Assembly (NCBI RefSeq): GCF_001552735.1
Contig: NZ_BCRT01000008.1
Location: forward strand, 62,001 to 126,000
DNA: 64,000 bases
Direction: 5' to 3'
From: Sanguibacter suarezii NBRC 16159
Lineage (GTDB): Bacteria > Actinomycetota > Actinomycetes > Actinomycetales > Cellulomonadaceae
A model generated the notes under the pieces. It worked only from the letters and a program-made list of their open reading frames with translations, did not search any database and had not been told where the DNA came from. The position numbers were made by a program, and so were the translations under genes. Shown piece after piece: positions 378 to 38,790 of the stretch (its first letter is position 1; the number at the start of each line of letters is the position of its first letter).

Positions 378-391
378 TTGTAACGATTCAA
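378..391. promoter_or_regulatory. Candidate LacI-type operator before 467 operon
   Basis: TTGTAACGATTCAA matches the 14-bp element found at 26132 and 38777 at 12 of 14 positions. It lies about 75 bp before the GTG start of the oxidoreductase operon, just after a weak -10-like TATGGT at 373-378. By inference it is bound by the LacI-family protein encoded at 24480-25583. Confidence 0.55.
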
Positions 392-466: not shown

Positions 467-1939
467 GTGACCTCCGAGAACACCACACCCATCCGTCGTC
501 GCTACGCCGTCACCGGCCTCGGCCACCGCAGCGCGATGTACGTGACCGCGATCCTCGGTGAGCACGCCGACGTCGCCGAGCTCGTCGCCTTCTGCGAGCC
601 GAACCCCACCCGCCTGGCCGCTTACACCGCCATTGCCGCGCAGGCGGGGGTGACCGTCCCCGGCTACACCCCGGACGCCCTCGAGCAGATGATCCGCGAG
701 CAGCGCGTGGACACCGTCATCATCACCACCCCCGACCACACCCACGCCCGGCTCGTGGACCGCGCGCTGCGCGCAGGGGCCGACGTCGTCGTGGAGAAGC
801 CGCTCACCATCTCGGCCGAGGGGTGCCAGACCATCACCACGGCCGTGGCCGAGACCGGCCGCGGCGTCGTCATGACCTTCAACTACCGCTACGCCCCGCG
901 CAACAGCGAGCTCAAGCGCGTCATTGCCTCTGGTGAGATCGGCGAGGTCACCTCGGTGCACTTCGAGTGGGTGCTGGACACCGTGCACGGCGCGGACTAC
1001 TTCCGCCGCTGGCACCGCGACAAGGACAGCTCCGGCGGCCTGCTCATCCACAAGTCCAGCCACCACTTCGACCTCGTCAACTGGTGGATCGCCGACGCCC
1101 CCGAGCGCGTCTACGCCCGCGGCGGGCTCAAGGTCTACGGCGACACCTCCGTCGTCGCCCGCGAGATGGCCGACGCCGACGCCGCAGCCGGCCTGCCCCC
1201 GCGCCCCGCGCGCGGGACCGGAAGCGCGGACGGCACGCGCGGCTGGGAAGGGCGCACCGGGGACAAGTGGTCCCTCGACCTGCGCGCCGACGAGCGTCTG
1301 GCCGAGCTCTACCTCGAGGCAGAGCACCACGACGGATACATCCGTGACCAGGATGTCTTCAGCCCGGGCATCACCATCGAGGACAACCTCGCCCTCCTCG
1401 TCGACTACCGCCGCGGCGCGACCCTCACCTACTCCCTCAACGCCCACGGCCCCTGGGAGGGCTACCGGGTCACGGTCAACGGCACCAAGGGCCGTGCCGA
1501 GCTCGAGGTCGTCGAGCGTGGTTCGATCGAGTTCGACGAGCGCGGCCGCTCCATCCTCGACCCCTCCGCCACCCCCGACGCGTGGGAGGGCGACGACGTG
1601 CGCCCCTTCGGCGACACCCTCACCGTGCAGAAGCACTGGGAACGGGCGCGCCGGGTGGAGATCCCCGCCGGGATCGGCGGGCACGGCGGCGGCGACGCGA
1701 TCTTGCTGCAGGACGTCTTCCGCGCACCGGTCGACGGCCCGCGGCCCGACCCGCTCGGGCGTCCGGCCGGCTACGTCGACGGCGTGCGCGCCGTCGCGGT
1801 CGGCATCTCCGGCAACTCCTCGCTGGTCAGCGGCCTGCCGGTGATCGTCGACGAGCTCAACCTGGGCATCGACATCACCGTCCCGCGCCCGGGTTCCCTG
1901 CCCGACGCCGCCCGCGCACCCGAGCAGGTGACCGCATGA
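467..1939 (+). CDS. Gfo/Idh/MocA family oxidoreductase
   Basis: NAD(P)-dependent sugar or cyclitol dehydrogenase of the Gfo/Idh/MocA family, 490 aa, cytoplasmic (no signal peptide). An N-terminal Rossmann fold carries GLGHRS near residues 17-22. The family signature EKP is at 110-112 and a TFNYRY stretch follows. At 490 aa it is longer than the usual 330-400; the excess is a charged Gly/Arg/Pro-rich insertion around 235-265. The GTG start has GGAG about 12 bases before it. It is the first gene of a four-gene operon and overlaps the next by ATGA. The substrate cannot be read from sequence. The operator upstream suggests induction together with rhamnose genes. Confidence 0.85.
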   Translation: MTSENTTPIRRRYAVTGLGHRSAMYVTAILGEHADVAELVAFCEPNPTRLAAYTAIAAQAGVTVPGYTPDALEQMIREQRVDTVIITTPDHTHARLVDRALRAGADVVVEKPLTISAEGCQTITTAVAETGRGVVMTFNYRYAPRNSELKRVIASGEIGEVTSVHFEWVLDTVHGADYFRRWHRDKDSSGGLLIHKSSHHFDLVNWWIADAPERVYARGGLKVYGDTSVVAREMADADAAAGLPPRPARGTGSADGTRGWEGRTGDKWSLDLRADERLAELYLEAEHHDGYIRDQDVFSPGITIEDNLALLVDYRRGATLTYSLNAHGPWEGYRVTVNGTKGRAELEVVERGSIEFDERGRSILDPSATPDAWEGDDVRPFGDTLTVQKHWERARRVEIPAGIGGHGGGDAILLQDVFRAPVDGPRPDPLGRPAGYVDGVRAVAVGISGNSSLVSGLPVIVDELNLGIDITVPRPGSLPDAARAPEQVTA

Positions 1940-3258
1940 CCCGCGCGTACCGCGCCGCGATCGTCGGCACCGGCGGGATCGCCAACGCCCACGCCGAGGC
2001 CCTCGCCGCCGCGCCCGGGCGGGTGCGCCTGACCCACGCGGTCGACGTCGACCAGGAGCGGGCGTCGGAGTTCGCCGACCGTTGGTCGGTCCCGGGCGCG
2101 GCCCCGGTGATCGCCTCGACCGACCTCGCCGACGTCCTGGCACGCACCCGCGAGGCGGGCGAGCCGCTCGACCTCGTGCACGTGTGCACCCCGCCGCAGT
2201 CGCACTTCGCCCTCGCTGCGCAGGTGCTCGCCGCCGGCGTCGACGTGCTGCTGGAGAAGCCGCCGACACTCTCCCTGGCCGAGCTCGACCAGCTCATCGC
2301 CCTCGAGCAGGAGACCGGCGCGCACGTGGGCGTCGTCTTCCAGCACCGTTTCGGGGCGGGTGCGCAGCGGTTGCGGGCGATGCTCGACGCTGCGCCGTCG
2401 CCGCTCGGCCGCCCGCTCGTCGCGCTGTGCAACACCCTCTGGTACCGCGACGCGGAGTACTTCGCCGCGCCGTGGCGCGGTCGGTGGGACACCGAGGGCG
2501 GCGGGCCGACGATGGGTCACGGCATCCATCAGCTCGACCTGCTGCTCGCGGTGCTCGGGCCGTGGTCGGAGGTCACCGCGATGGCCGGGCGCCAGGCGCG
2601 CGAGACCGACACCGAGGACGTGTCGATGGCCGTGGTGCGCTTCGCCAACGGTGCGCTGGCCTCGGTGGTCAACTCCGTCGTCTCACCGCGCCAGACCTCG
2701 GCGCTGCGCTTCGACACCGAGCACGCCACGATCGAGCTCGAGCACCTCTACGGCTACACCGACGCTGACTGGACCTTCACCCCGGCGCCCGGGCGCGAGG
2801 ACCTCAAGGAGCTGTGGACCAGCGACCCGGACGCCGCGACGTCGAGCCACTCCTCCCAGGTGCTGGCGATCCTCGACGCCCTCGATGCCGGGCTGCCGCT
2901 GCCGGTGCCTGCCACCGACGCGCGCGAGACCATCGAGCTCGTCGCCGCCCTCTACGCCTCGGCCTTCACCGGCCGCCCGGTGCGCCGCGGCGAGATCGGG
3001 CCTGGGCATCCCTTCGCTGCGGCGATGGACGGCAGCGGCGCGCCCTGGGCGCGTCCGGCCGCCGCACCGGGGACCGAGCCCGACGCCGCAGAACCTCCCG
3101 CGGTCACCGCGCCGGTGCCGACCGTGGAGGCCGCGATCATCTCCGCGACCGTGCCGCCGTCTGCGGAGACACCCCCGTCACCGGCCGCGCACATCGTCGT
3201 GCCCGCAGCAGCCGGGCTCACCGCAGCACCGACCCCTATCACCGAGGAGACCCGATGA
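1936..3258 (+). CDS. Gfo/Idh/MocA family oxidoreductase
   Basis: Second Gfo/Idh/MocA-type dehydrogenase, 440 aa, from an ATG inside the stop overlap of the preceding gene. It shows an N-terminal dinucleotide motif GTGGIANAHA (11-20), EKPP at 107-110 and the C-terminal-domain motif GHGIHQLDLL. It is clearly a paralogue of the protein at 23125-24345: both carry WYR, WRGRW and GHGIHQ blocks. The last roughly 80 residues are an Ala/Pro/Thr-rich tail with no visible domain, which is unusual for the family. Being translationally coupled to a different Gfo/Idh protein suggests two successive redox steps, or a mixed complex, on one sugar-derived substrate. Confidence 0.85.
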   Translation: MTRAYRAAIVGTGGIANAHAEALAAAPGRVRLTHAVDVDQERASEFADRWSVPGAAPVIASTDLADVLARTREAGEPLDLVHVCTPPQSHFALAAQVLAAGVDVLLEKPPTLSLAELDQLIALEQETGAHVGVVFQHRFGAGAQRLRAMLDAAPSPLGRPLVALCNTLWYRDAEYFAAPWRGRWDTEGGGPTMGHGIHQLDLLLAVLGPWSEVTAMAGRQARETDTEDVSMAVVRFANGALASVVNSVVSPRQTSALRFDTEHATIELEHLYGYTDADWTFTPAPGREDLKELWTSDPDAATSSHSSQVLAILDALDAGLPLPVPATDARETIELVAALYASAFTGRPVRRGEIGPGHPFAAAMDGSGAPWARPAAAPGTEPDAAEPPAVTAPVPTVEAAIISATVPPSAETPPSPAAHIVVPAAAGLTAAPTPITEETR

Positions 3259-4310
3259 CCCGCCTCACCCTGACCGACGACGGCACGGCTCTCGCGGTCC
3301 ACCTCGCCCCCGCCCCTGGCGCCCTCGGCGCACCCACCGAGCTCATCCGGTACGTCTACCGTCCCACCGACGTCCAGCTCGAGTCCCCGCGCCCCTACTT
3401 CCACCCGATCCGCACGGCCGGGGGAGACCTCGTCTCCCTGTTCCGCCCGCACGACCACGTCTGGCACAAGGGCATCGCCTGGTCGCTGCCGAACGTGGGC
3501 CCGCACAACTTCTGGGGCGGACCGACCTTCGTCAAGGGCGAGGGCTACGTCCAGCTCGACAACGACGGCTCGATGGTCCACGAAGGCTTCACCGCCGAGC
3601 GGGTCGACGACGACGGCGTCTTCGTCACCGAGTCCCTCGCCTGGTTCACCCAGGCGGGCGAGCGCGTGGTCAAGGAGGTGCGCTCCTTCTCCGTGACCGT
3701 CGCCGACCCCACCGACGCCCCCGACGCCGTCGCAGACCCCACCGACCCCGCAGCATGGGTCCTCACCTTCTCCTCCACGATGACCAACGTCTCCGGAGGG
3801 GACCTGCCCATCGGCAGCCCGACCACCAACGGCCGGGAGAACGCCGGCTACGGCGGCCTGTTCTGGCGCGGCCCGCGGTCCTTCACCGGCGGCACCATCC
3901 TCGCCCCGGACTTCGCCGGCGGCGAAGAGATCCGCGGCCAGCGCGCACCGTGGATGGGCTTCACCGGCACCCACGACGAGAGCGCCCGCCAGTCGACCCT
4001 CGTCATGGTCGACGACCGCGGCAACCCTCGCGGCCCCGCCTCCCCGGGCCAGGACCCCGAGTGGTTCGCGCGCAACGAGTGGTTCGCCTGCGTCTGCGCG
4101 ACGCCGTTCTTCAGCGAGGAGATCCCCTTCGCACCCCAGGACTCCCTCACTTTCCGCTACGCGGTCGTCGTGGCCGACGGCGGCGCGGACCCCGCGCGCG
4201 GTGAGCACCTCGCCGCGCTGGGCCGCGGCGTGCTCGGGACCGAGGACCCGCAGGCAGCGCGCACGCACGGCGCCGACGACCCGCTCGCCGCGAGCACACC
4301 TGCTCGATGA
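3255..4310 (+). CDS. DUF6807 / PmoA-like family protein
   Basis: 351-aa protein resembling the DUF6807 family, often labelled PmoA after a superficial link to methane oxygenase. Visible features are the motif FRPHDHVWHKGIAWS, a GRENAGYGGLFWRGP block and a late WFARNEWFACVCATPFF block. No signal peptide or membrane segment is seen. The His-rich HDHVWH cluster could bind metal. The biochemical function of the family is not established to my knowledge. It commonly sits beside Gfo/Idh dehydrogenases, as here, where it overlaps both neighbours by ATGA. A role in carbohydrate processing is inferred only from context. Confidence 0.75.
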   Translation: MTRLTLTDDGTALAVHLAPAPGALGAPTELIRYVYRPTDVQLESPRPYFHPIRTAGGDLVSLFRPHDHVWHKGIAWSLPNVGPHNFWGGPTFVKGEGYVQLDNDGSMVHEGFTAERVDDDGVFVTESLAWFTQAGERVVKEVRSFSVTVADPTDAPDAVADPTDPAAWVLTFSSTMTNVSGGDLPIGSPTTNGRENAGYGGLFWRGPRSFTGGTILAPDFAGGEEIRGQRAPWMGFTGTHDESARQSTLVMVDDRGNPRGPASPGQDPEWFARNEWFACVCATPFFSEEIPFAPQDSLTFRYAVVVADGGADPARGEHLAALGRGVLGTEDPQAARTHGADDPLAASTPAR

Positions 4311-5104
4311 CCGCTCCGCCGCCCCCGGTGCACCCGTTCCCGGGCGGCACCAGCGTCTCCCACCTGCGCGTCTACGACTGGCCGACGTCGGACGGCGTCG
4401 GCGTGGTGGGCGGCGGCACCCCGCACCTGCACACCGCCTCCGACGAGGGGTACGTCGTGCTCCGCGGAGCGGGCGCCGTCCAGACGCTGGGCCCGCACGG
4501 CTATGCCGAGCACAGGCTCAGGGAGGGGTCGATGCTGTGGTTCCAGCCCGGTGTCGTGCACCGGCTGGTCAACGACGGCGACCTGGAGATCCTCGTCGTC
4601 ATGTCCAACGCCGGTCTGCCCGAGGCGGGGGACGCGATCATGACCTTCCCCCCGCACGTGCTCGCCGACGCCGAGCGGTACCGGGCGGCGGCGACGCTGC
4701 CCGAGGGGCCGCCCGGGCGGGACGCGGAGATCGCCGCGGCCGCCCGCGCGCGCCGCGACCTCGCCGTCGACGGCTTCACCACCCTGCGCGACCGCGTCCT
4801 GGCCGAGGGTCCCGCCCAGCCCATGCAGGAGCTGTACGACGCCGCCGCGCGCCTGGTCCGCCACCGCGTGCCCGGGTGGCACACCACCTGGCAGGCGACG
4901 GTCGTCGCGTCGGCCCACGCCACCGACCAGGCCTTGTCCGACCTCGCCCAGGGCACCGGCCCGCACCTGGCCCGCGCCCAGATCTCAGCGACGAACGCCG
5001 ACCCGGGTCTGCGCTACGGCATGTGCGGACGCCTGACCACCTGGCGCTCGTCCGCCCCCCAGCGGCCGGATGTCAGGCATGTCGGCTCGGTCGAGCAGAC
5101 GTGA
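4307..5104 (+). CDS. Cupin domain protein
   Basis: 265-aa protein with an N-terminal cupin barrel at about residues 20-110: the sugar-binding-type motif HLHTASDEGYVVLRG, then a second block PGVVHRLVNDGDLEILVVMSN. Metal-ligand histidines and a glutamate are present in the first block. The C-terminal half (about 120-265) is helical with no family I recognise. It starts in an ATGA overlap and is the last gene of the oxidoreductase/DUF6807 operon. It could be a sugar isomerase, epimerase or binding accessory. Catalysis is not proven by sequence. Confidence 0.75.
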   Translation: MTAPPPPVHPFPGGTSVSHLRVYDWPTSDGVGVVGGGTPHLHTASDEGYVVLRGAGAVQTLGPHGYAEHRLREGSMLWFQPGVVHRLVNDGDLEILVVMSNAGLPEAGDAIMTFPPHVLADAERYRAAATLPEGPPGRDAEIAAAARARRDLAVDGFTTLRDRVLAEGPAQPMQELYDAAARLVRHRVPGWHTTWQATVVASAHATDQALSDLAQGTGPHLARAQISATNADPGLRYGMCGRLTTWRSSAPQRPDVRHVGSVEQT

Positions 5105-5505: not shown

Positions 5506-6516
5506 ATGCCTCAGTTCGACCTGCCGCTGCCCGAGCTCGAGGCCTACCGGCCTGACCGTGAGGAACCTGCCGACTTCGACGCGTTCTGGTTGCGGACCCT
5601 GGCCGAGCAGGACGCCGCCCACCCCCTGGAGGCGACCTTCGAGCGGGTGGACACCGGCCTGACCGAGGTGATCACCGAGGACGTGACGTACACCGGATTC
5701 GGCGGGCAGCCGATCAAGGCGTGGCTGCACCGACCGGCCCACGCGAGCGGCCCCCTGCCCACGGTGGTCACGTACATCGGCTACGGCGGCGGGCGCGGGC
5801 TCAGCCACGAGCACGTGCTGCACGCCGTCGCCGGCCGCGCGCACCTGGTCATGGACAACCGCGGCCAGGGCAGCGGCCACCAGATCGGGGACACCGGCGA
5901 CGCCGGGGAGACCGGCGCGCACGCCGCCGGGTTCCTCACCTCCGGGATCGACTCACCGGACACCTACTTCTACCGGCGCATCTACGTCGACGCCGAGCGC
6001 GCCGTCCGGGTGGCCCGCAGCCACGCGAACGTGGACACGGCCGACGTCATGGTCTCCGGCGGGTCCCAGGGCGGGGCGCTCAGCCTGGCCGCGGCGGCGC
6101 TCACGGAGCTGCGCGACGGCGTCGGGCACCCGCCGCTGCGGGCCGCGATCGTGGACGTGCCCTTCCTGTCGCACGTGCGCCGCGCCTCGGTGCTGACCGA
6201 CGCCTTCCCCTACGCCGAGCTGGTCCAGTACTTCCACACCCACCGCGACCGCATCGAGCAGGCCTTTGGCACGCTGAGCTATTTCGACGCGATGAACCTC
6301 GCCGCGCGGGTCACCATCCCGGGGCTGTTCTCGGTGGGGCTGATGGACCAGATCTGTCCGCCGTCCACGGTCTACGCGGCGTACAACCACTACGCCGGGA
6401 GCAAGGAGATGGTCGTCTACCCCTACAACGGCCACGAGAACGGCGGACCGTTCCAGGACGCGCAGCACCTGCGTTTCGCCGCCGCGCACCTGGGCGGCGC
6501 GCGGCTGCTGTCCTGA
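5506..6516 (+). CDS. Acetylxylan esterase / cephalosporin-C deacetylase family hydrolase
   Basis: 336-aa alpha/beta hydrolase of the AXE1 family, which removes acetyl groups from xylo-oligosaccharides and similar small acetylated sugars. The nucleophile elbow GGSQGG puts Ser at about 187. MDNRGQG near 116-122, the late acid block GLMDQICPP and GHENG (histidine) complete the triad region. Length is typical (about 320-330). It has no signal peptide, so it should act inside the cell on imported oligosaccharides. ATG 5506 has AAAGG 8 bases upstream. It is monocistronic, and no copy of the rhamnose-type operator was seen before it. Confidence 0.85.
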   Translation: MPQFDLPLPELEAYRPDREEPADFDAFWLRTLAEQDAAHPLEATFERVDTGLTEVITEDVTYTGFGGQPIKAWLHRPAHASGPLPTVVTYIGYGGGRGLSHEHVLHAVAGRAHLVMDNRGQGSGHQIGDTGDAGETGAHAAGFLTSGIDSPDTYFYRRIYVDAERAVRVARSHANVDTADVMVSGGSQGGALSLAAAALTELRDGVGHPPLRAAIVDVPFLSHVRRASVLTDAFPYAELVQYFHTHRDRIEQAFGTLSYFDAMNLAARVTIPGLFSVGLMDQICPPSTVYAAYNHYAGSKEMVVYPYNGHENGGPFQDAQHLRFAAAHLGGARLLS

Positions 6517-7082: not shown

Positions 7083-7084
7083 AC

Positions 7085-18419: not shown

Positions 18420-18420
18420 G

Positions 18421-19653: not shown

Positions 19654-22109
19654 CCGGCACCCGCACCCGCACGAGCGCCGTGCCGACGACCCCCCGGACG
19701 CTCACCGCGCCGGACGGGCGCCGCGCCCGCGCGAGCCAGCTCGTCGACGTCGCCGTCATGGCGGTCGCAGTGCTCCTGGCTCTCCTGCCGCTCATCCCGG
19801 TCTTCTCACCCGCCGCCGCGATCCCGGCGATCGTCGGCGGGGTGCTCCTCGGTGCGGTCGTGGCTGCCCTGGCCGTGCTGCGGCGCTGGCCGGTGCTCAC
19901 CACGATCGCCGCGACCATGGTCGCCTTCCTCGTCGGTGGAGGTCCGCTCGCGGTACCGACCACCACCGTGGGCGGGGTGCTGCCCAGCCTCGACTCGCTG
20001 GTGGGGCTGGCGCGAGGGGTGGTGACGTCCTGGAAGCAGGTGCTCACCCTCGAGCCGCCGCTCGGTTCCACGGGAAACTCTCTCGTCATGCCGTACGTGC
20101 TGGGGCTCGTCGCGGTGGTCTGCGCCGCGCTGGTGGCGGCCGGGCCGGTCGCCCAGGCGGGCCGGCGTTCCCGTGGGACGCGGGCGGCCGCCGCTGCGGG
20201 GCCCCGCGCGGTGCGGCTGCTGGTCGCCCCGGCCATCCCGGCCACGGTGCTCGTGCTGTCGATCCTCTTCGGCACCGTCGAGCGCATGCTCGCCACCGTG
20301 ATCGGTGCGTCGATGACCGTCCTGCTCCTGGTGTGGGCAGCATGGCGGCGCGGGCAGTGGAAGCCGCGGCGGGTCGCCTCGCTCGCCGTGCTCGCCATCC
20401 TGGCGGTCGGCGGCGGTGTCCTGGTGGCGCCGGTCGTGGCCGGGGACGTGCCGCGGTTCGTGCTGCGCAGCGTCGTCGTGCCGCCCTTCGACCCGCGTGA
20501 GCACCCGAGCCCGCTCGCGGCTTACCGGGCCTTCATCAAGGAGACCAAGGACACCGACCTGCTCACGGTGCGCGGGCTGGCGGAGGGCGACGTGGTGCGC
20601 CTGGCGACAATGGACAGCTTCGACGGCGTCGTGTGGAACGTCCTGGGCGACGGCGAGCCGGCTGCGTCCGGCTCCTTCCGCACCGTGGGCGACACCATCC
20701 CCACCTCGCTCGACGGGCGCCCGGTGAGCATCGACGTCGAGGTGCACGCCCTGGACGGGGTGTGGCTGCCCACGGTGGGCCAGACCACCGAGATCACCTT
20801 CGACGGCGACGACCGCAACAGCGCACGCACGGCCTTCCGCTTCAACGACTCGACCGGCACGGCGGTGCTGAGCACCGGGCTGGACGAAGGGCAGCGGTAC
20901 ACCCTGGAGGGGATCGTGCCGGTCGTGCCCTCGGACGAGGAGATCGGCTCGGCCAGGCCCGGCGACGTCGTGGTCCCCGCACCCCGAGGCGTGCCAGACA
21001 TCGCGGCGACCCGGTCCTCCGAGGTCACGGCCTCCGCCACGAGCGCCGCGCTGGTGGCCCGCGCCCTGGAGACCTATCTGCACGAGACCGGCTTCTTCAG
21101 CCACGGCATCGAGGCGTCGGGGGACTATCCCTCCTTGTCCGGGCACGGCGCGAGCCGCATCACCGAGCTGCTCGGTGGGGAGATCATGGTCGGCGACGCC
21201 GAGCAGTACGCCTCGGCGATGGCGCTCATGGCCGGCCAGCAGGGCCTGCCGGCCCGGGTGGTCATCGGCTTCGTCCCCGCCGAGGAGGACCAGGGCGCGG
21301 AGTCCATCACCTTCACCGGCGACGACGTCCTGGCCTGGGTCGAGGTCAACTACGCCGGAGTCGGCTGGGTGCCCTACTACCCGACGCCGCCCACCAACCA
21401 GACCCCGCAGGACAACGAGGACCCGGTCGAGAAGGACCCGCAGCCGCAGGTGGTCCAGCCCCCGCCGCCGCCGGCCGACCCGGTCGTGCCGCCGAAGGAC
21501 GACATCGAAGAGCCCAACGTCGAGGCGAACGAGGAGGAGACCCAGACGGGCACGGACATGGGCCGGATCGTGGCGATCACGGCCGCCGTCTCGCTGCCGC
21601 TCCTGCTGGTGCTGGTGCCGCTGATGCTGGTGGGGATGGCCAAGCGGCGCCGTCGCCGGCGTCGCCAGCACGCCGCCGACCCGGTCCGCCGGATCAGCGG
21701 CGGCTGGGACGAGGTGCTCGACACCGCCCGGGACCACGGCACGCCTCCGCCGCACGACGCCACCCGTCGTGAGACGGCCCGGACGCTGGCAGCCGCCTAC
21801 CCGCGGATCCCCGCGACCGCGCTGGCCGAGCACGCTGACGCCGCGGTGTTCTCCGGCACGGTGCCGAGCGAGGCCGTGGTGTCCGGGTACTGGCAGACGG
21901 TCGACGAGTCGGTCGCGGTCATCACCTCCGACGGCTCGCTGTGGGCTCGCCTGCGCGGGCAGTACGCCGTGGCCTCGCTGCGCGTGGCCCGCAACGACCG
22001 TGCCGCCAGCAACGACCGTGCCGCCAGCAACGACCGTGCCGTCAGCAACAGCCGTGCGGCCAGCAGGGCGCGGCGGGCTCGTCGTGGACGAGGCTCCCGC
22101 CGCTCCTAG
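19650..22109 (+). CDS. TgpA-like membrane protein with degenerate transglutaminase fold
   Basis: 819-aa polytopic protein. About six transmembrane helices (35-275), an extracellular transglutaminase-like domain (about 440-585), a Pro-rich stalk (PPPPPADPVVPP), a seventh helix near 635-660 and a cytoplasmic tail. The transglutaminase region keeps the fold signatures (EQYASAMALMAGQQGLPARVVIGF and AWVEVNYAGVGWVPYYPTP). However, the catalytic Cys is Ala 517, the His is Leu 561 and the Asp is Tyr 577, so it should not be enzymatically active. It starts in a GTGA overlap with the DUF58 gene. The C-terminus contains four 6-residue NDRAAS-like repeats. Its stop codon overlaps the convergent gene. Confidence 0.88.
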   Translation: MTGTRTRTSAVPTTPRTLTAPDGRRARASQLVDVAVMAVAVLLALLPLIPVFSPAAAIPAIVGGVLLGAVVAALAVLRRWPVLTTIAATMVAFLVGGGPLAVPTTTVGGVLPSLDSLVGLARGVVTSWKQVLTLEPPLGSTGNSLVMPYVLGLVAVVCAALVAAGPVAQAGRRSRGTRAAAAAGPRAVRLLVAPAIPATVLVLSILFGTVERMLATVIGASMTVLLLVWAAWRRGQWKPRRVASLAVLAILAVGGGVLVAPVVAGDVPRFVLRSVVVPPFDPREHPSPLAAYRAFIKETKDTDLLTVRGLAEGDVVRLATMDSFDGVVWNVLGDGEPAASGSFRTVGDTIPTSLDGRPVSIDVEVHALDGVWLPTVGQTTEITFDGDDRNSARTAFRFNDSTGTAVLSTGLDEGQRYTLEGIVPVVPSDEEIGSARPGDVVVPAPRGVPDIAATRSSEVTASATSAALVARALETYLHETGFFSHGIEASGDYPSLSGHGASRITELLGGEIMVGDAEQYASAMALMAGQQGLPARVVIGFVPAEEDQGAESITFTGDDVLAWVEVNYAGVGWVPYYPTPPTNQTPQDNEDPVEKDPQPQVVQPPPPPADPVVPPKDDIEEPNVEANEEETQTGTDMGRIVAITAAVSLPLLLVLVPLMLVGMAKRRRRRRRQHAADPVRRISGGWDEVLDTARDHGTPPPHDATRRETARTLAAAYPRIPATALAEHADAAVFSGTVPSEAVVSGYWQTVDESVAVITSDGSLWARLRGQYAVASLRVARNDRAASNDRAASNDRAVSNSRAASRARRARRGRGSRRS
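21993..22064 (+). repeat. Four 18-bp in-frame tandem repeats
   Basis: Four copies of an 18-bp unit (aacgaccgtgccgccagc and close variants) encode NDRAAS, NDRAAS, NDRAVS and NSRAAS at the C-terminal end of the transglutaminase-fold protein. The first two copies are identical and the last is most diverged, typical of replication slippage. The repeat keeps the frame and leads into an Arg-rich tail. Confidence 0.85.
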
Positions 22110-23128
22110 TCGAGCTGGGGAGCCGGGACGTTCTCGCGGTCGCACACCAGGACGCCGTCGACCACCCGCAGCACGGCGACCTGCACCGACGAGCGGCGCT
22201 CGGCGGAGGTGGTCTCCCCGAAGGGCGTCTGGGGCGCGCCCGGTGGGGGGACGGGGTGGGTGAAGTAGAAGACGTAGGCGTGGTCAGCATCGACCGGCAC
22301 GGTGTCCAGGCTCACCGCCCCAGGAACCACGACGTCCGCGTGCAGGCCTATCGACGTGTCCTGCGCCCGGGTTCCGGGGAGGTCGAGGATGAGGCCGTCA
22401 CCTTCTTGGGCCTGCCAGGTGGTGAGGTCGTCGGAGCGGTAGACCCGCTGCCCTCGCCACTCGTCGACGATCATCCAGAAGGACCCACCGAGGGCGAAGA
22501 CGTTGGGCCCTTCGTGCGGGCGCCCGGTCAGGACCGGGCCGATCGGCGTCCAGGTGACCAGGTCGTCGCTGTCGGCGGCGTAGGTGTGGGAGTCGGCCGC
22601 CTCGTTCTTGAACCACATGCGGTAGGCCGCGGTGCCGGCCGGGGCGCGGGGACCCAGGGACGCGGCGAGGGGGAACACGCACGCGTCGATCACCCGGCGT
22701 GAGCCCAGGTCGAGGCGGCTGACGTGGGTCCACGTCACCAGGTCCGGGCTGGTGTAGTGCTCGATGTCCCGGTCGTGACCGGGCCACTCGGTGGGCACGC
22801 CGCGGATGTAGGAGACGTACATGTGGTACTCCCCACGGGCCCAGACCACCTCGGGCGCCCAGAAGGTGTTGGTGCCCCACTCGACGTCCAGCCCGTCCAG
22901 CGTGCCCCGGTAGAGCCAGGTCCCCCCGCCGTCCTCGCTGACCGCCACCCCGATGGCCGTCCCGTGGACCCAGGCGACGCCGGGGCCCTGCGCGGTGGCG
23001 CGGCGCTGGGTGTAGAACATCCACCACTGGCCGAGCTCACGGTTGAAGACGACCACCGGGTCGGTCGCGCCGTCGAAGACCGGGTCGCGGAACAGCGGCG
23101 CGGCAGCGGGGGCGCGGTCTGCCGTCAT
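22106..23128 (-). CDS. Five-bladed beta-propeller glycoside hydrolase (GH43/GH32-like)
   Basis: 340-aa cytoplasmic protein with the repeated blade pattern of the GH43/GH32/GH117-type propeller: FRDPVFDGATDPVVVFN (candidate base Asp), WAPEVVWARGEYHMYVSY, IDACVFPL, YRMWFKNEAADSHTYAADSDDLVTW and HEGPNVFALGGSFWMIVDEW (candidate acid Glu). I cannot assign subfamily or substrate. The start overlaps the stop of the upstream Gfo/Idh gene by ATGA, so the two form an operon. Its own stop overlaps by 4 bases with the converging transglutaminase-fold gene. An operator-like site lies before the operon at 24411. Confidence 0.75.
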   Translation of the reverse strand: MTADRAPAAAPLFRDPVFDGATDPVVVFNRELGQWWMFYTQRRATAQGPGVAWVHGTAIGVAVSEDGGGTWLYRGTLDGLDVEWGTNTFWAPEVVWARGEYHMYVSYIRGVPTEWPGHDRDIEHYTSPDLVTWTHVSRLDLGSRRVIDACVFPLAASLGPRAPAGTAAYRMWFKNEAADSHTYAADSDDLVTWTPIGPVLTGRPHEGPNVFALGGSFWMIVDEWRGQRVYRSDDLTTWQAQEGDGLILDLPGTRAQDTSIGLHADVVVPGAVSLDTVPVDADHAYVFYFTHPVPPPGAPQTPFGETTSAERRSSVQVAVLRVVDGVLVCDRENVPAPQLD

Positions 23129-24345
23129 GCGGAGGCCGGGACGCCGACACCCAGCCCGAGCTCGGCCCGCGGGTCGCGGACCGCGCTCTCCAAGGACGTG
23201 GCCAGCAGGCCCTCGGCGCGCAGCTCGCCCGCGCTGATCCGGCGACCGCCGGCGTCGGCCGAGGCGTAGATGGCGGTGACGATCTCCAGGGGCCGGCGGG
23301 CCGATCCGGCGACGTCGGGCAGGACGGTGCCCTCGCGCAGGGCCCGGAAGGTCTCGCGGATGAGGGGGATGTGCCCGCTCGGCTCGTCGTGGTCGGGGAA
23401 GGCCCAGGTGGCGGCCTCGGCGGCGTCGACGATCGGGGCAGGGGTGATCCGCCAGTTCGGGACGGCGTGTCCGTAGAGGTGCTCGACCTCGATGGTCGCC
23501 TTCTCGCAGTCGATGCGCACGTGGCTCGTCTCGCGCGGGCACAGCGTGGAGGAGGTGGCCGTGGCCACCACGCCGTTGGCGAAGAGGATGGTCGCGGTCG
23601 AGGCGTCCTCCATGTCCGTCGCGCGGTCCAGGCGCCAGGTCTGGGCGCTGATCTCAGCCCAGTCGCCGAGCAGGTGGGCGAGCAGGTCCATCTGGTGGAT
23701 GCCGTGCCCCAGGGTGGTGCCCCCGCCCTCGGTGGCCCACCTCCCGCGCCAGTCGACGGCGTAGTAGTCGGTCCCGCGGTACCAGAGCGTCTCGCACTGG
23801 GCGAGGAGCGGGCGGCCCAGCGCGCCGGAGGTGAGGAGGGCGCGCACGTGCGCGGCACCGGTGCCGGTGCGCTGCTGGAAGATGATGCCGAAGGCCAGCC
23901 CGGCGTCGTCGCAGGCCTGCTGCATGTCGTCGAGCTCGGCGAGGGACAGGGCCGGGGGCTTCTCGCACACCACGTGCACCCCCGCGGCGACGGCCTGGAG
24001 GGTCTGCTCGCGGTGCAGGTCGGGCGGGGTGCACAGGTGCACCACGTCGACGTCCTCGGCGGCGAGGAGCTCGGCGAGGGTCTCGTAGCGGCCGGGGATG
24101 TCGTAGGTGTCGGCGAAGGCGGTGCGGCGCTCGGCGTTGCGGTTGGAGCAGGCGACGGTCACCGCGAGCGGGTCGAGGGCGATCGCCTGGGCGTGCAGGT
24201 GGGCGACAGCGCCGGTGCCGATGATCGCCGCGCGGACGGGGCGGTCGTGGCCGATGGCCGGCCAGGGGGCGCGGACGGTCGGTGCGTCCGCGGGAGCCTG
24301 GGCGTACGGGTCGAAGGGCAGTGCGGGACGTGCAGAGTCAGACAT
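23125..24345 (-). CDS. Gfo/Idh/MocA family oxidoreductase
   Basis: 406-aa NAD(P)-dependent dehydrogenase. A 40-residue N-terminal extension precedes the Rossmann motif IIGTGAVAHLHAQ. EKPPALS, the WYRGTDYY/WRGRW blocks and GHGIHQMDLLAHLLGDW follow. It is a close paralogue of the enzyme at 1936-3258, sharing motif order and spacing, but lacks its Ala/Pro tail. A GGAG lies 8-11 bases before the ATG. It is co-transcribed with the propeller glycosidase, an arrangement that fits oxidation of the sugar as part of glycoside turnover, though the substrate is unknown. Confidence 0.88.
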   Translation of the reverse strand: MSDSARPALPFDPYAQAPADAPTVRAPWPAIGHDRPVRAAIIGTGAVAHLHAQAIALDPLAVTVACSNRNAERRTAFADTYDIPGRYETLAELLAAEDVDVVHLCTPPDLHREQTLQAVAAGVHVVCEKPPALSLAELDDMQQACDDAGLAFGIIFQQRTGTGAAHVRALLTSGALGRPLLAQCETLWYRGTDYYAVDWRGRWATEGGGTTLGHGIHQMDLLAHLLGDWAEISAQTWRLDRATDMEDASTATILFANGVVATATSSTLCPRETSHVRIDCEKATIEVEHLYGHAVPNWRITPAPIVDAAEAATWAFPDHDEPSGHIPLIRETFRALREGTVLPDVAGSARRPLEIVTAIYASADAGGRRISAGELRAEGLLATSLESAVRDPRAELGLGVGVPASA

Positions 24346-24410: not shown

Positions 24411-24424
24411 ATGGAACGATTCAA
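24411..24424. promoter_or_regulatory. Candidate LacI-type operator before Gfo/Idh-glycosidase operon
   Basis: ATGGAACGATTCAA on the plus strand (TTGAATCGTTCCAT in the direction of the operon) matches the rhaI operator at 11 of 14 positions, including the central AACGATTCA. It sits 66 bp before the start of the minus-strand oxidoreductase gene, between that gene and the repressor gene's 3' end. Confidence 0.55.
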
Positions 24425-24479: not shown

Positions 24480-25583
24480 TCAGCCCGCGCTGGTGGGCGA
24501 GCTGCCGGACGGGTTGCCGGACGAGCTGCCGGACGAGCCGGCCGAGGCGCTGCTGGAGGCGCGGACCACCAGCTCGGGCTGGAACTGCACCTGCTCGGGG
24601 CGGAAGCGCTCGCCCTGCTGGTGCTCGGTGAGCAGCAGGTCGGCGGCGCGGTAGCCGAGCTGGTGGGTGGGCTGGCGCACGGAGGTGAGCGGGATCGCGA
24701 GCTCCCCGGCAAAGTTGACGTCGTCGTAGCCGACGACGGCCATCTCGCCCGGCATGTCGATCCCGGCTCGGCGCAGCGTGCGCTGCACGCCCAGGGCGAC
24801 GAGGTCGTTCACGCAGAACACCGCGGTGGGCCGGTCGACGCCGGCGGTCGTGGTGGCCAGCAGGTGCGTCATCGCTGCCTCGCCGCCGTCGGCGTTGAGG
24901 GAGGCGGCGGTGACCTCGACGAGGTCGGTGGAGGCGTCCAGGCCCGCGGAGTCGAAGGCGCGCAGCATCCCGGCGTACCGGTCCCCGCACTGGCGGATGG
25001 TGTGCACACCGTTGATGAACGCGATGCGGGTGTGGCCCTCGGCGATGAGGTGGCTGCCGGCCAGCTGCCCGCCGACAACGTCGTTGACCGCGGCGGAGGA
25101 GATGTCGGGGACAGGGGAGGTCGCGTCGAGCAGGACGACGTTGACGCCGCGGGCGCGCAGCTCGAGCAGCGGCTCGATGTCGTCGCCGGAGGGGACCACG
25201 AGCACGCCTTGCACGCCGTGCTCCTCGAAGAGCTTGAGGTAGCGGGCCTCGCGGTCGGGGTCCTCATCCGAGCTCGCGAGCATGAGGGTGTAGTCGTCCT
25301 CGGCGAGGCGGTCCTCGATCCCGCGGGCCACCTCGGTGAAGAAGGGGTTGCCGATGTCCAGGACGATCGCGCCCACGGTGGTGATGGTCCCGGCCCGCAG
25401 CTGACGGGCTGAGCCGTTGGGCACGAACTGGAGCTCGGAGATGGCGTCCTCGACGCGTTCGCGGGTGGTGGGGGAGACGCGGTCGGGGCGGTTGAGCACG
25501 TTGGAGACTGTTCCGACGGAGACTCCGGCCTTGCGAGCGACGTCACTGATGGAGCTGCGTCTGCGAGGGGTGGTCGTGGACAC
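24480..25583 (-). CDS. LacI-family repressor, probable L-rhamnose regulator
   Basis: 367-aa LacI/GalR-type repressor. The N-terminal helix-turn-helix at about 11-35 reads ISDVARKAGVSVGTVSNVLNRP, followed by a hinge (LQFVPNGSARQLRAG) and a periplasmic-binding-protein-like effector domain (60-335) ending in TSVRQPTHQLGYRAADLL. A Ser/Gly-rich tail of about 25 residues is extra. GTG start with GAAAGG upstream. It diverges from rhaM, as is usual for LacI-type rhamnose regulators of Actinobacteria. An operator-like element in the shared intergenic region suggests autoregulation. The ligand, probably rhamnose or rhamnulose-derived, is inferred from neighbours. Confidence 0.9.
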   Translation of the reverse strand: MSTTTPRRRSSISDVARKAGVSVGTVSNVLNRPDRVSPTTRERVEDAISELQFVPNGSARQLRAGTITTVGAIVLDIGNPFFTEVARGIEDRLAEDDYTLMLASSDEDPDREARYLKLFEEHGVQGVLVVPSGDDIEPLLELRARGVNVVLLDATSPVPDISSAAVNDVVGGQLAGSHLIAEGHTRIAFINGVHTIRQCGDRYAGMLRAFDSAGLDASTDLVEVTAASLNADGGEAAMTHLLATTTAGVDRPTAVFCVNDLVALGVQRTLRRAGIDMPGEMAVVGYDDVNFAGELAIPLTSVRQPTHQLGYRAADLLLTEHQQGERFRPEQVQFQPELVVRASSSASAGSSGSSSGNPSGSSPTSAG

Positions 25584-25650: not shown

Positions 25651-25706
25651 TTGACCCGTCAGGGGCGGTGACCGTACCGTCCCAGAACCGCAATGAACCG
25701 ATTCAC
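25651..25706 (+). promoter_or_regulatory. Candidate rhaM promoter and LacI-type operator
   Basis: TTGACC at 25651-25656 and TACCGT at 25675-25680 (18-bp spacer) are followed by ATGAACCGATTCAC at 25693-25706, a 12-of-14 match to the rhaI operator. The order promoter then operator is the same as before rhaI. The site lies in the divergent gap between repressor and rhaM and could control both. Confidence 0.5.
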
Positions 25707-25744: not shown

Positions 25745-26101
25745 ATGTCCCGCGTGTGTTTTGTCTCCCAGGTCCGCCCCGACCGTCTGGACGAGTACCG
25801 GGAACGTCATGCCGCCGTCTGGCCGGAGATGCTTGAGGCGTTGCGAGACACCGGATGGTCGGACTACCGCCTGTTCTTGTCTCCGACGGGGCTGCTCGTG
25901 GGCTTCGTGGAGACCGATGACTACGCGGACGCGCAGGCCGCGATGGCGCTGACCGAGGTCAACGCCCGCTGGCAGGCCGAGATGGGGGAGTTCTTCGTCG
26001 CTGACGATGCCCGCCCGGACGAGGGGATGATGCTCCTGGACGAGGTGTTCCACCTGGAAGGGCAGCTCGCGGCGGCCGGCTTGGCGACCGAGCGCGCTTG
26101 A
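25745..26101 (+). CDS. rhaM: L-rhamnose mutarotase
   Basis: 118-aa protein of the RhaM family (usual length about 104-115), which interconverts alpha- and beta-L-rhamnose to feed the isomerase. Family marks visible: RPDRLDEYRERHAAVWPEM near the N-terminus (catalytic His region), SDYRLFLSPTGLLVGFVE, and MGEFFVADDARPDEGMMLLDEVFHL. An ideal Shine-Dalgarno (AGGAGG) stands 5 bases before the ATG. It is the first gene of the rhamnose catabolic cluster and is divergent from the LacI repressor. Confidence 0.93.
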   Translation: MSRVCFVSQVRPDRLDEYRERHAAVWPEMLEALRDTGWSDYRLFLSPTGLLVGFVETDDYADAQAAMALTEVNARWQAEMGEFFVADDARPDEGMMLLDEVFHLEGQLAAAGLATERA

Positions 26102-26131: not shown

Positions 26132-26145
26132 TTGAAACGATTCAC
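26132..26145. promoter_or_regulatory. LacI-type operator of rhaI
   Basis: TTGAAACGATTCAC, 4 bases after the proposed -10, exactly where a repressor blocks promoter clearance. An identical 14-mer is found at 38777-38790. The element is an imperfect palindrome around a central CG, the usual LacI-family format. Confidence 0.75.
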
Positions 26146-26164: not shown

Positions 26165-27340
26165 ATGTCAGCACACGAGCTGAGCCCGCAGGCGCACGCA
26201 GCCCTTCTGTCCCAGACGATCGAGCTGCCCTCCTGGGCTTTTGGGAACTCCGGCACCCGGTTCAAGGTCTTCGCCCAGGCTGGCGTCCCTCGTGACCCCT
26301 TTGAGAAGATCTCCGACGCCGCACAGGTGAATCGATACACCCAGGCCGCTCCGCGAGTCTCCCTCCACATCCCGTGGGACCTGGTCGACGACTACGAGGC
26401 CCTCGCCGCGCACGCCCGCGACAACGGAGTGACCATCGGGGCGATCAACTCCAACCTCTTCCAGGACGACCAGTACATGCTCGGCTCGCTCACCCACCCC
26501 GACGCCGTGGTGCGCAAGAAGGCCGTGGACCACCACCTGCAGTGCCTGGACGTCATGCGCGCCACCGGCTCCACCGACCTCAAGCTCTGGCTGCCCGACG
26601 GCCTGAACTACCCCGGCCAGGACAGCCTGCGCGGCCGCCAGGACCGCCTCGCGGAGTCCCTCGCCGAGATCTACGCCGCCCTCGACCCCGAGCACCGCCT
26701 CGTCATCGAGTACAAGTTCTTCGAGCCGGCCTTCTACTCCATGGACATCCCGGACTGGGGCACCGCGCTGCTGCACTGCCTCGCCCTGGGCGAGCAGGCC
26801 GTCGTCGTGCTGGACACCGGGCACCACGCCCCGGGCACCAACATCGAGTTCATCGTCGCCCAGCTGCTGCGCCAGGGGCGCTTGGGCGCCTTCGACTTCA
26901 ACTCCCGCTTCTACGCCGACGACGACCTCATGGTCGGGGCGGCGGACCCGTTCCAGCTGTTCCGGATCATGCACGAGATCGTCTCGGCCGGTGCCCTCGC
27001 CCCGGACTCGGGGGTGAACTTCATGCTCGACCAGTGCCACAACATCGAGCCGAAGATCCCCGCCCAGATCCGGTCGGTGATGAACATCCAGGAGGCGACC
27101 GCCAAGGCTCTGCTCGTGGACACCGTCGCCCTCGAGGCCGCACAGACCTCCGGCGACGTGCTCGCCGCCAACGGCGCGCTCATGGACGCCTACAACACCG
27201 ACGTGCGCGCCCTGCTCGCTGACCTGCGCGAGGAGCAGGGACTGCACCCGGACCCCCTGGCCGCCTTCGCGGCCTCGGGCTACACCGAGACGATCGTGGC
27301 CGAGCGCGTCGGTGGCGCGCAGGCCGGATGGGGAGCCTGA
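26165..27340 (+). CDS. rhaI: L-rhamnose isomerase (RhaI type)
   Basis: 391-aa TIM-barrel isomerase converting L-rhamnose to L-rhamnulose, of the type known from Pseudomonas stutzeri and Actinobacteria rather than the E. coli RhaA type. Metal-binding and active-site blocks: KLWLPDGLNYPGQDS, LVIEYKFFEPAFYSMDIPDW, VVLDTGHHAPGTNIEFIVAQL, FDFNSRFYADDDLMVGAADPFQLFR and VNFMLDQCHNIEPKIPAQIRSV. ATG 26165 has GGTGGAGAG upstream. It is followed by the aldolase fusion after one base. Expression is probably controlled by the promoter/operator at 26098-26145. Confidence 0.94.
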   Translation: MSAHELSPQAHAALLSQTIELPSWAFGNSGTRFKVFAQAGVPRDPFEKISDAAQVNRYTQAAPRVSLHIPWDLVDDYEALAAHARDNGVTIGAINSNLFQDDQYMLGSLTHPDAVVRKKAVDHHLQCLDVMRATGSTDLKLWLPDGLNYPGQDSLRGRQDRLAESLAEIYAALDPEHRLVIEYKFFEPAFYSMDIPDWGTALLHCLALGEQAVVVLDTGHHAPGTNIEFIVAQLLRQGRLGAFDFNSRFYADDDLMVGAADPFQLFRIMHEIVSAGALAPDSGVNFMLDQCHNIEPKIPAQIRSVMNIQEATAKALLVDTVALEAAQTSGDVLAANGALMDAYNTDVRALLADLREEQGLHPDPLAAFAASGYTETIVAERVGGAQAGWGA

Positions 27341-29615: not shown

Positions 29616-31172
29616 GTGAGCGAGCAGGATGCAGGCGCGGCCTTCGTGGCCGTAGACCTCGGGGCGTCGAGCGGACGGGTGATCGTCGGTCGCGTGCTGG
29701 GCGCGCCGGGGGACCAGCGCGTCGAGCTGCACGAGGTCAACCGGTTCCCCAACGGGCCGGTCGAGGTGGGCGGGACGCTGCACTGGGACGTGCTGCGCCT
29801 GTACCAGGGCATCACCGACGGCCTGCGCGCCGCCGTCCGCGAGATCCACGCCCGCGGCGACGTCCTGGCCGGGGTGGGCATCGACTCCTGGGCCGTGGAC
29901 TATGGCCTGCTCGACGCCGACGGCACGCTGCTGGCCAACCCCGTGCACTACCGCGACTCCCGCACCGCCGGAGTCCCTGACCGCGTCTTCGCCCAGATCG
30001 ACGCGGCCGACCACTACTCCGTCAACGGCCTGCAGACCCAGCCGTTCAACACGGAGTTCCAGCTCGTCGCGGCAGCCCGATCCGCCCAGAAGGCTGCCGC
30101 GGCGTCCCTCCTGCTCATCCCGGACCTGCTCGGGTACTGGCTCACCGGGGAGCAGGTCGCCGAGGTGACCAACGCCTCGACCACCGGCCTGCTCGACGTG
30201 CGCGCCCGCGACTGGTCCGCGGCCCTGCTCGACCGCCTCGAGGGGGCGTTCGGCGGCGCCGGGGCCACCTTCGCCGAGCTGCTGCCTCCCGTGGTGGAGG
30301 CCGGGGAGATCATCGGGACGCTGCTCCCCGCCGTCGCGCAGGCCGCGGGGATCCACGGGCAGGTGCCGGTGATCGCCGTCGGCTCCCACGACACCGCCTC
30401 TGCGGTCGTCGCGGTCCCGGCCACGAGCGAGAGCTTCGCGTACATCTCCTGCGGCACCTGGTCGCTCGTCGGGCTGGAGCTGGCCGAGCCCGTGCTCAGC
30501 GCGGCCAGCCGCGCAGCGAACTTCACCAACGAGCTCGGTGTGGACGGCACCGTGCGCTACCTGCGCAACGTCATGGGCCTGTGGTTGCTGCAAGAGTCGA
30601 TCCGCACATGGAACGCCGCCGGCCTGCCCGCGGACCTGCCCGACCTCCTCGCCGCCGCGGCGCAGGTCCCACCGTTGACCACGGTGGTCGACGTCGACGC
30701 CCCGGAGTTCCTCGCCCCCGGGGACATGCCCGCACGGATCGCCGCGGCTGCCGAGCGCACCGGGCAGACCCCGCCGCAGTCTCAGGCCGAGACGGTCCGC
30801 TGCATCCTCGACTCCCTCGCGCTGGCCTACCGCCGTGCCGTGCGCCAGGCGAGCGAACTGTCCGGGCGAGCGGTCGACGTCGTGCACGTGGTGGGCGGCG
30901 GGGTGCGCAACGAGCTGCTGTGCCAGCTCACCGCAGACGCGACCGGGCTGTCGGTGGTCGCCGGACCGGTCGAGGGAGCGGCGCTGGGCAACGTCCTGGT
31001 CCAGGCCCGGGCGGTCGGTGCGCTCACCGGAGACCTCGCGGCGCTGCGCGCGGTGGGGGCCCGCGGAGTCGAGCTGCGGCGCTACGTCCCCGGCGGCGGG
31101 ACGGCGCCGGTGGCCGACGAGCACTGGGAGGCCGCAGCGCGTCGCCTGCACGGCCCGGTGCGGACGCCGTGA
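29616..31172 (+). CDS. rhaB: L-rhamnulokinase
   Basis: 518-aa FGGY-family sugar kinase phosphorylating L-rhamnulose at O1. Motifs: VAVDLGASSGRVIVG near the N-terminus (phosphate loop), GIDSWAVDYGLLD (catalytic Asp region), HYRDSRT, QTQPFNTEFQL, GSHDTASAV, SCGTWSLVG and VVGGGVRNELLCQLTAD. I chose GTG 29616 (AAGGACGG upstream) over an earlier ATG at 29544, because the extra residues are not family-like. It lies 210 bp after the aldolase fusion, and the gap shows no obvious terminator or operator, so it may be co-transcribed. Confidence 0.92.
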   Translation: MSEQDAGAAFVAVDLGASSGRVIVGRVLGAPGDQRVELHEVNRFPNGPVEVGGTLHWDVLRLYQGITDGLRAAVREIHARGDVLAGVGIDSWAVDYGLLDADGTLLANPVHYRDSRTAGVPDRVFAQIDAADHYSVNGLQTQPFNTEFQLVAAARSAQKAAAASLLLIPDLLGYWLTGEQVAEVTNASTTGLLDVRARDWSAALLDRLEGAFGGAGATFAELLPPVVEAGEIIGTLLPAVAQAAGIHGQVPVIAVGSHDTASAVVAVPATSESFAYISCGTWSLVGLELAEPVLSAASRAANFTNELGVDGTVRYLRNVMGLWLLQESIRTWNAAGLPADLPDLLAAAAQVPPLTTVVDVDAPEFLAPGDMPARIAAAAERTGQTPPQSQAETVRCILDSLALAYRRAVRQASELSGRAVDVVHVVGGGVRNELLCQLTADATGLSVVAGPVEGAALGNVLVQARAVGALTGDLAALRAVGARGVELRRYVPGGGTAPVADEHWEAAARRLHGPVRTP

Positions 31173-38776: not shown

Positions 38777-38790
38777 TTGAAACGATTCAC
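38777..38790. promoter_or_regulatory. LacI-type operator before class II aldolase
   Basis: TTGAAACGATTCAC, identical over 14 bases to the rhaI operator at 26132-26145 and 38 bp before the aldolase start. This ties a remote gene pair to the LacI repressor of the rhamnose cluster. The 38544-38827 gap also contains the prfC upstream region; no further element was recognised. Confidence 0.7.

Follow-up and report, generated by a model that had tools for sequence, protein, structure and literature searches.

What does an operon do that encodes two oxidoreductases of the Gfo/Idh/MocA family together with a DUF6807 protein (PF14100) and a cupin? Such an operon occupies positions 467-5104 of a 64,000-nucleotide stretch of the Sanguibacter suarezii NBRC 16159 genome (contig NZ_BCRT01000008.1, here C8; the whole stretch, G000:C8:62001-126000, is referred to as the window, and other genomes and loci by G and L numbers), whose nearest relatives in a scan for DUF6807 are Sanguibacter species (best identity 87%). 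The four open reading frames (ORFs) lie on the forward strand and are coupled by three ATGA overlaps, at positions 1936, 3255 and 4307; ORF and Pfam analysis bear out the composition given in a first-pass annotation of this DNA, namely two Gfo/Idh proteins (hereafter A and B), DUF6807 and the cupin (Table 1). The data described below are best compatible with an intracellular unit acting on oligosaccharides of rhamnogalacturonan-I (RG-I), a major component of pectin and its branched backbone, which would open glycosidic bonds by a redox route rather than by plain hydrolysis, a reading to which we assign a probability of roughly 55%. The assignment to RG-I utilization is strong; the chemistry is hypothetical and proposed by analogy.

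The operon is preceded by an exact match, TTGTAACGATTCA, to the pattern TTGNAACGATTCA, the rhamnose-type operator that the first-pass annotation had pointed out, and the same motif is found before rhaI and other genes of the window. The pattern has four exact matches in the 3.8 Mb genome, all on C8, and 7 matches with at most one mismatch, 6 of which fall within 64 kb (C8:36961-100789); looser matches appear to be noise because 31 places match with up to two mismatches compared to 24 for the reversed pattern. In their order along C8, the six sites precede the gene of a protein that combines a GDSL esterase domain with a PL11 rhamnogalacturonan lyase domain and has a signal-like N-terminus (starting at L086:7334), an ATP-binding cassette (ABC) sugar transporter (starting at L003:12506), the operon, gene E with an adjacent GH159 gene, rhaI and, last, a gene for a class II aldolase. 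The gene E-GH159 pair at 22-24 kb, in which E is a paralog of B (45% identity), had already been suggested to share a pathway with the operon, and this link is strengthened by the one-mismatch operator at the pair and by the gene order DUF6807-cupin-E-GH159 in L032 (Cryobacterium) and in L075, L078 and L084 (Agromyces); in L032, the set is divergent from homologs of rhamnose genes and GH51. The LacI-family regulator of the window clusters with the LacI genes that adjoin rhaM in L014, L018 and L024. In the relatives, sites with at most two mismatches are present upstream of gene A (L006, L007, L014 and L024), upstream of the transporter (many loci), in the regulator/rhaM gap (L014, L018 and L024) and upstream of rhaI (L014 and L018), and none was detected in L009, L019 and L020. 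In Actinomycetales, a LacI-type RhaR is predicted to control genes for rhamnose and rhamnose oligosaccharides (PMC3870299), and the regulon described there resembles the present one in its LacI-type RhaR, ABC transporter, rhamnose catabolism and rhamnose-containing oligosaccharides; however, it includes the rhamnosidases ramA and rhmA, whereas the S. suarezii genome matches no GH78, GH106 or GH88/105 model, and neither DUF6807 nor PF14100 occurs as a term in the searchable text of that article. One operator motif is common to the operon and the rha genes of the window, and the set also includes a LacI gene; as judged from sequence, the operon is a member of a LacI-type rhamnose/RG-I regulon with a predicted operator.

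The connection to rhamnogalacturonan comes from gene order and co-occurrence. In two genomes of the same family (L088 and L089; Pfam assignments were made for L088, whose 179-amino acid cupin is probably miscalled), the genes for a PL11 lyase, B, DUF6807 and the cupin are consecutive. They are preceded by genes for a LacI protein, a mannitol-dehydrogenase-type protein resembling fructuronate/tagaturonate reductase, a substrate-binding protein and two permeases, and by a small gene, and are followed by homologs of GH42, a RhaR-like regulator, rhaM, rhaI, an esterase-type gene and rhaEW. Among 198 genomes of the order, DUF6807 is present in 58 and a rhamnogalacturonan lyase (RG-lyase) domain above the cut-off in 43; DUF6807 occurs in 37 of these 43 compared to 21 of the other 155 (odds ratio 39, p = 5e-19). 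The association holds within strata, with odds ratios of 20 and 77 in GH10-positive and GH10-negative genomes, and of about 20 and 66 in GH78-positive and GH78-negative ones (80 of the 81 genomes above the GH78 cut-off were entered; adding the probable omission, G016, shifts the odds ratios slightly). The control, GH10 xylanase, is associated with DUF6807 across the 198 genomes (odds ratio 5, p = 2e-6), but this association vanishes within RG-lyase-positive (p = 1.0) and RG-lyase-negative (p = 0.16) genomes. An RG-lyase domain lies within 50 kb of 19 of the 93 DUF6807 places, compared to roughly 2.5 expected (four weak RG-lyase places were left out, and genome size was set to 4.5 Mb for most genomes). 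Genes of uronate metabolism are also found close to DUF6807: UxaC, the only one to reach its NCBIfam cut-off, in L093 and L103, and, at the family level, altronate/galactarate-dehydratase-type genes (L093, L095, L100 and L103), mannitol-dehydrogenase-type genes nearest to fructuronate reductase (L093, L099 and L105) and a sugar kinase (L104). A gene of the mannitol-dehydrogenase type is also present in S. suarezii itself (C8:30001-31446). Together, these findings narrow the substrate to RG-I or galacturonate-containing oligosaccharides.

Intracellular breakdown of RG-I is generally assumed to require GH105 enzymes and rhamnosidases. The S. suarezii genome, listed as 100% complete, yields no match to any of four models, PF07470 (GH88/105), PF17389 (GH78), PF17132 (GH106) and PF00295 (GH28). 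Because the genome seems to be devoid of the usual rhamnogalacturonan enzymes, the operon may represent an unrecognized, oxidation-based route. Strong GH88/105 matches (at least 100 bits) are present in 4 of the 43 RG-lyase genomes, and DUF6807 in 29 of the 32 RG-lyase genomes that have no GH88 match at the cut-off. Two DUF6807-negative genomes, G126 and G154, encode a strong GH88/105 protein within 4 kb of a weak RG-lyase domain (28.7 and 32.3 bits separately, 52 and 55 when combined), which looks like a replacement of one solution by another. In L103, a GH88/105 gene lies near the DUF6807 locus, so that the two solutions can coexist.

Examination of gene neighborhoods in the best 80 of the 321 loci from the DUF6807 scan, all with solo DUF6807 genes, shows which components belong together. 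Within 6 kb of DUF6807, tblastn detects only a B-type dehydrogenase in 43 loci, only A in 15 (13 of which are Cellulomonas-type loci with close relatives of A), only E in 9, both A and B in 8 (L006, L007, L009, L010, L014, L018, L024 and L052) and none in 5; an A-type gene is absent from 57 of the 80 loci, and a cupin is present in 65. Gene order was read with a simple ORF caller with approximate starts, which failed to call DUF6807 in L014 and the B gene of L018 and whose counts are corrected by the tblastn results. On the same strand, the gene directly upstream of DUF6807 encodes a Gfo/Idh protein in 63 of 79 loci and overlaps DUF6807 in 58; the gene directly downstream encodes a cupin in 62, with an overlap in 52. 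Given these counts, the core consists of one Gfo/Idh protein and DUF6807, usually with a cupin, and it looks as if A, B and E can stand in for one another as partners of DUF6807, as far as can be told from sequence. Thus, of the scheme in the first-pass annotation, the sugar pathway, its control, the recurrent neighborhood and the link to the 22-24 kb pair find support, whereas successive oxidation by two dehydrogenases is weakened; a fixed pair that first oxidizes and then reduces is not required and was dropped, since A and B occur together in so few loci and some loci have no relative of A, B or E. In Nonomuraea (L033:6294-10235), and also in L029, L030 and L059, the B-DUF6807-cupin set is followed by a gene for a protein of about 1300 amino acids, which in L033 contains beta-helix and carboxypeptidase-regulatory domains.

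A and B contain the Rossmann and C-terminal Gfo/Idh/MocA domains, both above the Pfam cut-off, and the EKP motif. In an alignment of 77 DUF6807 proteins (of 81 homologs, 79 were shorter than 480 amino acids, and 76 of these were aligned with the window protein), there is no variation at D67, H68, W70 and H71, and conservation at H66 is 90% or more; this is the HDHVWH cluster noticed earlier, which reads PHDHVWHK in the window protein. The same alignment shows no variation at E289, a candidate base. All of 23 diverse copies keep P45, D67, W87-G88-G89, E141, Y199, R205, W233, W270 and R273, with H68 retained in 22 and H71 in 21. The protein is predicted to form a beta-sandwich (predicted local distance difference test (pLDDT) 87.5, predicted template modeling (TM) score 0.89), with weak Foldseek matches to galactose mutarotases, a hexose-6-phosphate mutarotase and related sandwiches; single-sequence and profile searches against the PDB yielded no match beyond chance ones to ribosomal proteins. 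In the cupin, the predicted metal ligands H40, H42, E47 and H85 (HxH...E...H) are invariant in 49 sequences (48 of 63 cupins and the window protein), and the structural model (pLDDT 90.7) matches, among many cupins, sugar isomerases, a 3,4-ketoisomerase and KdgF. The substrates of KdgF are unsaturated uronates derived from pectin, and a KdgF-like activity would match what an RG lyase releases. The open-licence PubMed Central (PMC) articles that mention DUF6807, PF14100 or the PmoA family do so in passing or, in one case, for a PF14100 gene next to beta-galactosidases, and give no function for it, and a search of the same literature for rhamnogalacturonan oligosaccharides together with Gfo/Idh/MocA returned no match.

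In the pathway that we infer, a secreted PL11 lyase would cut RG-I, and the ABC transporter would take up galacturonate-rhamnose oligosaccharides. Inside the cell, a Gfo/Idh protein with nicotinamide adenine dinucleotide (NAD) would oxidize a ring hydroxyl, by analogy at C3, of the terminal sugar, with galacturonate, its unsaturated form and rhamnose as candidates; the conserved polar pocket of DUF6807 would then eliminate or hydrolyze the activated bond, as a lyase or a hydrolase. The cupin might hydrate, isomerize or linearize the freed keto or unsaturated sugar, and a second Gfo/Idh protein (A, B or E) may reverse the oxidation by reducing the keto-sugar, A and B possibly having different tasks; the order of these steps is likewise proposed. 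The products would feed rhamnose catabolism (RhaM, RhaI, RhaEW and the kinase) and uronate catabolism. Redox-assisted cleavage appears to be the best reading because of the NAD-type coupling, the sugar context and the existence of oxidation-elimination pathways. A precedent for oxidation, elimination, hydration and reduction is the levoglucosan pathway LgdA-LgdB1-LgdB2-LgdC (PMC7676230), which is similarly non-hydrolytic and combines a 3-dehydrogenase and a Gfo/Idh reductase with two further proteins; however, its substrate is an anhydrosugar, and both LgdB1 and LgdB2 carry the annotation sugar phosphate isomerase/epimerase, whereas the operon encodes DUF6807 and a cupin instead of an eliminase and hydratase of that type next to the dehydrogenase. 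In the 3-keto-glycoside hydrolases of the DUF1080 family (BT2157 and CCNA_01705), the presumed substrate of a DUF protein is likewise a 3-keto-glycoside that a dehydrogenase has produced, but the family is PF06439 and the substrates are trehalose and lactose (PMC9007349). AtOGE and the C-glycoside beta-eliminases also perform beta-elimination from a C3-oxidized glycoside, although they are Mn-dependent triosephosphate isomerase (TIM) barrels, in contrast to the beta-sandwich predicted for DUF6807 (PMC10628242).

The fold predictions also bear on the strongest alternative, which we consider unlikely but deserving of serious attention, namely that the operon serves RG-I use without cleaving bonds: an unrecognized hydrolase would free the sugars, DUF6807 would be a mutarotase or epimerase acting on a keto or uronic sugar, and the Gfo/Idh proteins and the cupin would channel galacturonate or rhamnose. 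The mutarotases among the top Foldseek matches of DUF6807 and the isomerases, ketoisomerase and KdgF among the many matches of the cupin fit such roles, and so does Lac161_ORF9, a PF14100 protein whose gene may share an operon with those of two reported beta-galactosidases (PMC5342196). However, the regulon already provides for mutarotation and isomerization of rhamnose, the four models revealed no backbone hydrolase, and Gfo/Idh is either fused to DUF6807 or coupled to it in translation.

These fusions further help to evaluate a second alternative, under which A (or B) would be an NAD-dependent glycosidase like those of GH109 or GH188, with oxidation, elimination and reduction all taking place in a single active site, and DUF6807 and the cupin would act downstream. 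Among PDB entries, A is matched best by 8qc2, titled Gfo/Idh/MocA oxidoreductase (E = 2e-18, residues 10-223), which we take to be a GH188 sulfoquinovosidase, and a similarly partial match to 6t2b (GH109) has E = 1e-7. This possibility is improbable given the 57 DUF6807 loci that have no A-type gene within 6 kb, and given that the Gfo/Idh partners in DUF6807 fusions do not belong to the A type. Such fusions are found in L056, in L093 and at a second locus of S. suarezii itself (L087:5435-7627, 730 amino acids), and suggest that Gfo/Idh and DUF6807 serve one reaction. The second locus (L087:53-15998, on G000:C9) contains, in addition to the fusion gene, a DUF4862 gene, a transporter-like set, two Gfo/Idh genes of the A type whose products are paralogs of A with 58-60% identity, a ThuA-family gene, another Gfo/Idh gene and an enolase-type gene.

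A different kind of fusion was detected in 8 of 18 fetched regions, from eight genomes (a non-random sample chosen for RG-lyase nearness or DUF6807): in each case a single ORF encodes a LacI protein with DUF6807 at the C-terminus, the helix-turn-helix (HTH) domain being complete in seven and partial in L103, and the ligand-binding domains being present. These architectures could mean that the main role of DUF6807 is to bind a ligand, so as to sense or modify the inducer, and not to act as a catabolic enzyme, but this is quite doubtful, considering that the solo DUF6807 genes in the 80 loci mostly overlap Gfo/Idh and cupin genes and that the DHxxH residues are retained in most of the fused copies. 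Finally, inositol or another unrelated pathway, which the first-pass annotation had named as an alternative, is hardly credible: the inositol 2-dehydrogenase IolG (TIGR04380) is the top NCBIfam model for both A and B, but the scores of 95.5 and 70.6 bits are far below the curated cut-off of 355, and the regulon and neighbors point to rhamnose and rhamnogalacturonan.

Several observations weigh against redox cleavage of RG-I as formulated above. The function proposed for DUF6807 is deduced from context; its Foldseek matches are remote (E = 1e-5 to 1e-3, TM score about 0.4, root mean square deviation 9-10 angstroms), and the candidate base E289 is not retained in the 8 LacI fusions, in 2 of the 4 Gfo/Idh fusions or in 3 additional copies. 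No cupin is recognizable within 6 kb in 15 of the 80 loci, A and B occur together in 8, and 5 have no relative of A, B or E. The four-model glycosidase negative does not cover PL22, GH154 and other families, which were not searched in the S. suarezii genome. Among the RG-lyase genomes, the inverse relation of DUF6807 to GH88/105 does not reach significance (p = 0.09), with two genomes that have both and four that have neither (G032, with a GH88 match of 92 bits, G088, G129 and G149). The 21 DUF6807 genomes without an RG-lyase domain above the cut-off also count here; within RG-lyase-negative genomes, DUF6807 tracks GH78 (16 of 21, p about 1e-5), which makes it possible that part of the DUF6807 systems act on other substrates. 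Moreover, the genomes share descent, which the statistics ignore; in the one taxonomic stratum analyzed, the family to which S. suarezii belongs, the counts are 9 of 10 compared to 1 of 5 (p = 0.017).

A more far-reaching proposal, which we advance tentatively and would not be surprised to see fail, is that DUF6807 is a new class of glycoside-cleaving enzymes, 3-keto-galacturonoside or 3-keto-rhamnoside lyases or hydrolases on a mutarotase-like sandwich, that together with Gfo/Idh proteins takes the place of GH105 and rhamnosidases in the principal intracellular route of RG-I breakdown in many Actinobacteria of the order, and that the LacI fusions carry an enzyme making or destroying their own inducer. 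If the operon does break down RG-I by a redox route, a DUF family would gain a function and a new type of glycoside-cleaving enzyme would become available, pectin-using genomes that apparently lack GH105 and rhamnosidases would be explained, and the LacI-DUF6807 fusions would represent an unusual enzyme-regulator design.

Table 1. Features of the operon and the predicted rhamnose/RG-I regulon in the window, and LacI-DUF6807 fusions of other genomes (coordinates with an L prefix refer to those loci; aa, amino acids)
Feature	Position	Strand	Basis or remark
Operator-like site TTGTAACGATTCA	378..390	+	exact match to TTGNAACGATTCA; 77 bp 5' of gene A
Gene A, Gfo/Idh/MocA oxidoreductase	467..1939	+	490 aa, GTG start; Pfam PF01408, PF02894, PF22725
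Gene B, Gfo/Idh/MocA oxidoreductase	1936..3258	+	440 aa, C-terminal tail rich in proline/alanine; Pfam
DUF6807 protein (PF14100)	3255..4310	+	351 aa; Pfam, 238.8 bits (cut-off 27)
Cupin with helical C-terminal domain	4307..5104	+	265 aa; Cupin_2, 38.7 bits (cut-off 27.2)
AXE1-type acetyl esterase	5506..6516	+	PF05448, 346.6 bits; 3' of operon also in L006, L008, L018
GH159 glycosidase (furanosidase family)	22106..23128	-	7zei Ch_Gaf159A, E 1e-88
Gene E, Gfo/Idh paralog of B	23125..24345	-	Pfam; 45% identity to B
Operator-like site 5' of gene E	24411..24423		one mismatch
LacI-family regulator, candidate RhaR	24480..25583	-	Pfam LacI and Peripla_BP_3; divergent from rhaM
Operator-like site, regulator/rhaM gap	25693..25705		two mismatches
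rhaM, L-rhamnose mutarotase	25745..26101	+	PF05336, 102.3 bits (cut-off 23.4)
Operator-like site 5' of rhaI	26132..26144	+	exact match
rhaI, L-rhamnose isomerase	26165..27340	+	TIGR02635, 597 bits (cut-off 531)
rhaEW-type aldolase/short-chain dehydrogenase	27342..29405	+	TIGR02632, 1036.5 bits (cut-off 568)
FGGY kinase, probably rhamnulokinase	29616..31172	+	best model TIGR02627, 428.7 bits, under cut-off 528
Operator-like site 5' of class II aldolase gene	38777..38789	+	exact match
Class II aldolase gene	38828-39493		PF00596; below all NCBIfam cut-offs; operator-like site 50 bp upstream
LacI-DUF6807 fusion	L091:7804-9819		HTH and Peripla_BP_3
LacI-DUF6807 fusion	L097:11624-13516		HTH and Peripla_BP_3
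LacI-DUF6807 fusion	L098:13181-15100		HTH and Peripla_BP_3
LacI-DUF6807 fusion	L100:10340-12304		HTH and Peripla_BP_3
LacI-DUF6807 fusion	L102:7272-9239		HTH and Peripla_BP_3
LacI-DUF6807 fusion	L103:10649-12553		HTH and Peripla_BP_3
LacI-DUF6807 fusion	L104:8684-10654		HTH and Peripla_BP_3
LacI-DUF6807 fusion	L105:9380-11332		HTH and Peripla_BP_3

Among the genes that surround the operon, the AXE1-type esterase gene possibly belongs to the same pathway. A divergent gene upstream of the operon, outside the window (L003:18407-19984), encodes GH51-type arabinofuranosidase domains, and upstream of the regulon's transporter lies a GH95-family gene (L003:7628-10234) with neighbors that look GntR- and MFS-like by eye. 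Between the two halves of the regulon, the window (6693-22109) contains genes for FHA, PP2C phosphatase, protein kinase, MoxR-type ATPase, transglutaminase and a 2043-amino acid protein. In a methane gene survey (PMC10291797), PF14100 serves as a PmoA marker; because PF14100 now corresponds to DUF6807, which is found in sugar loci, the counts in that survey may reflect sugar genes.

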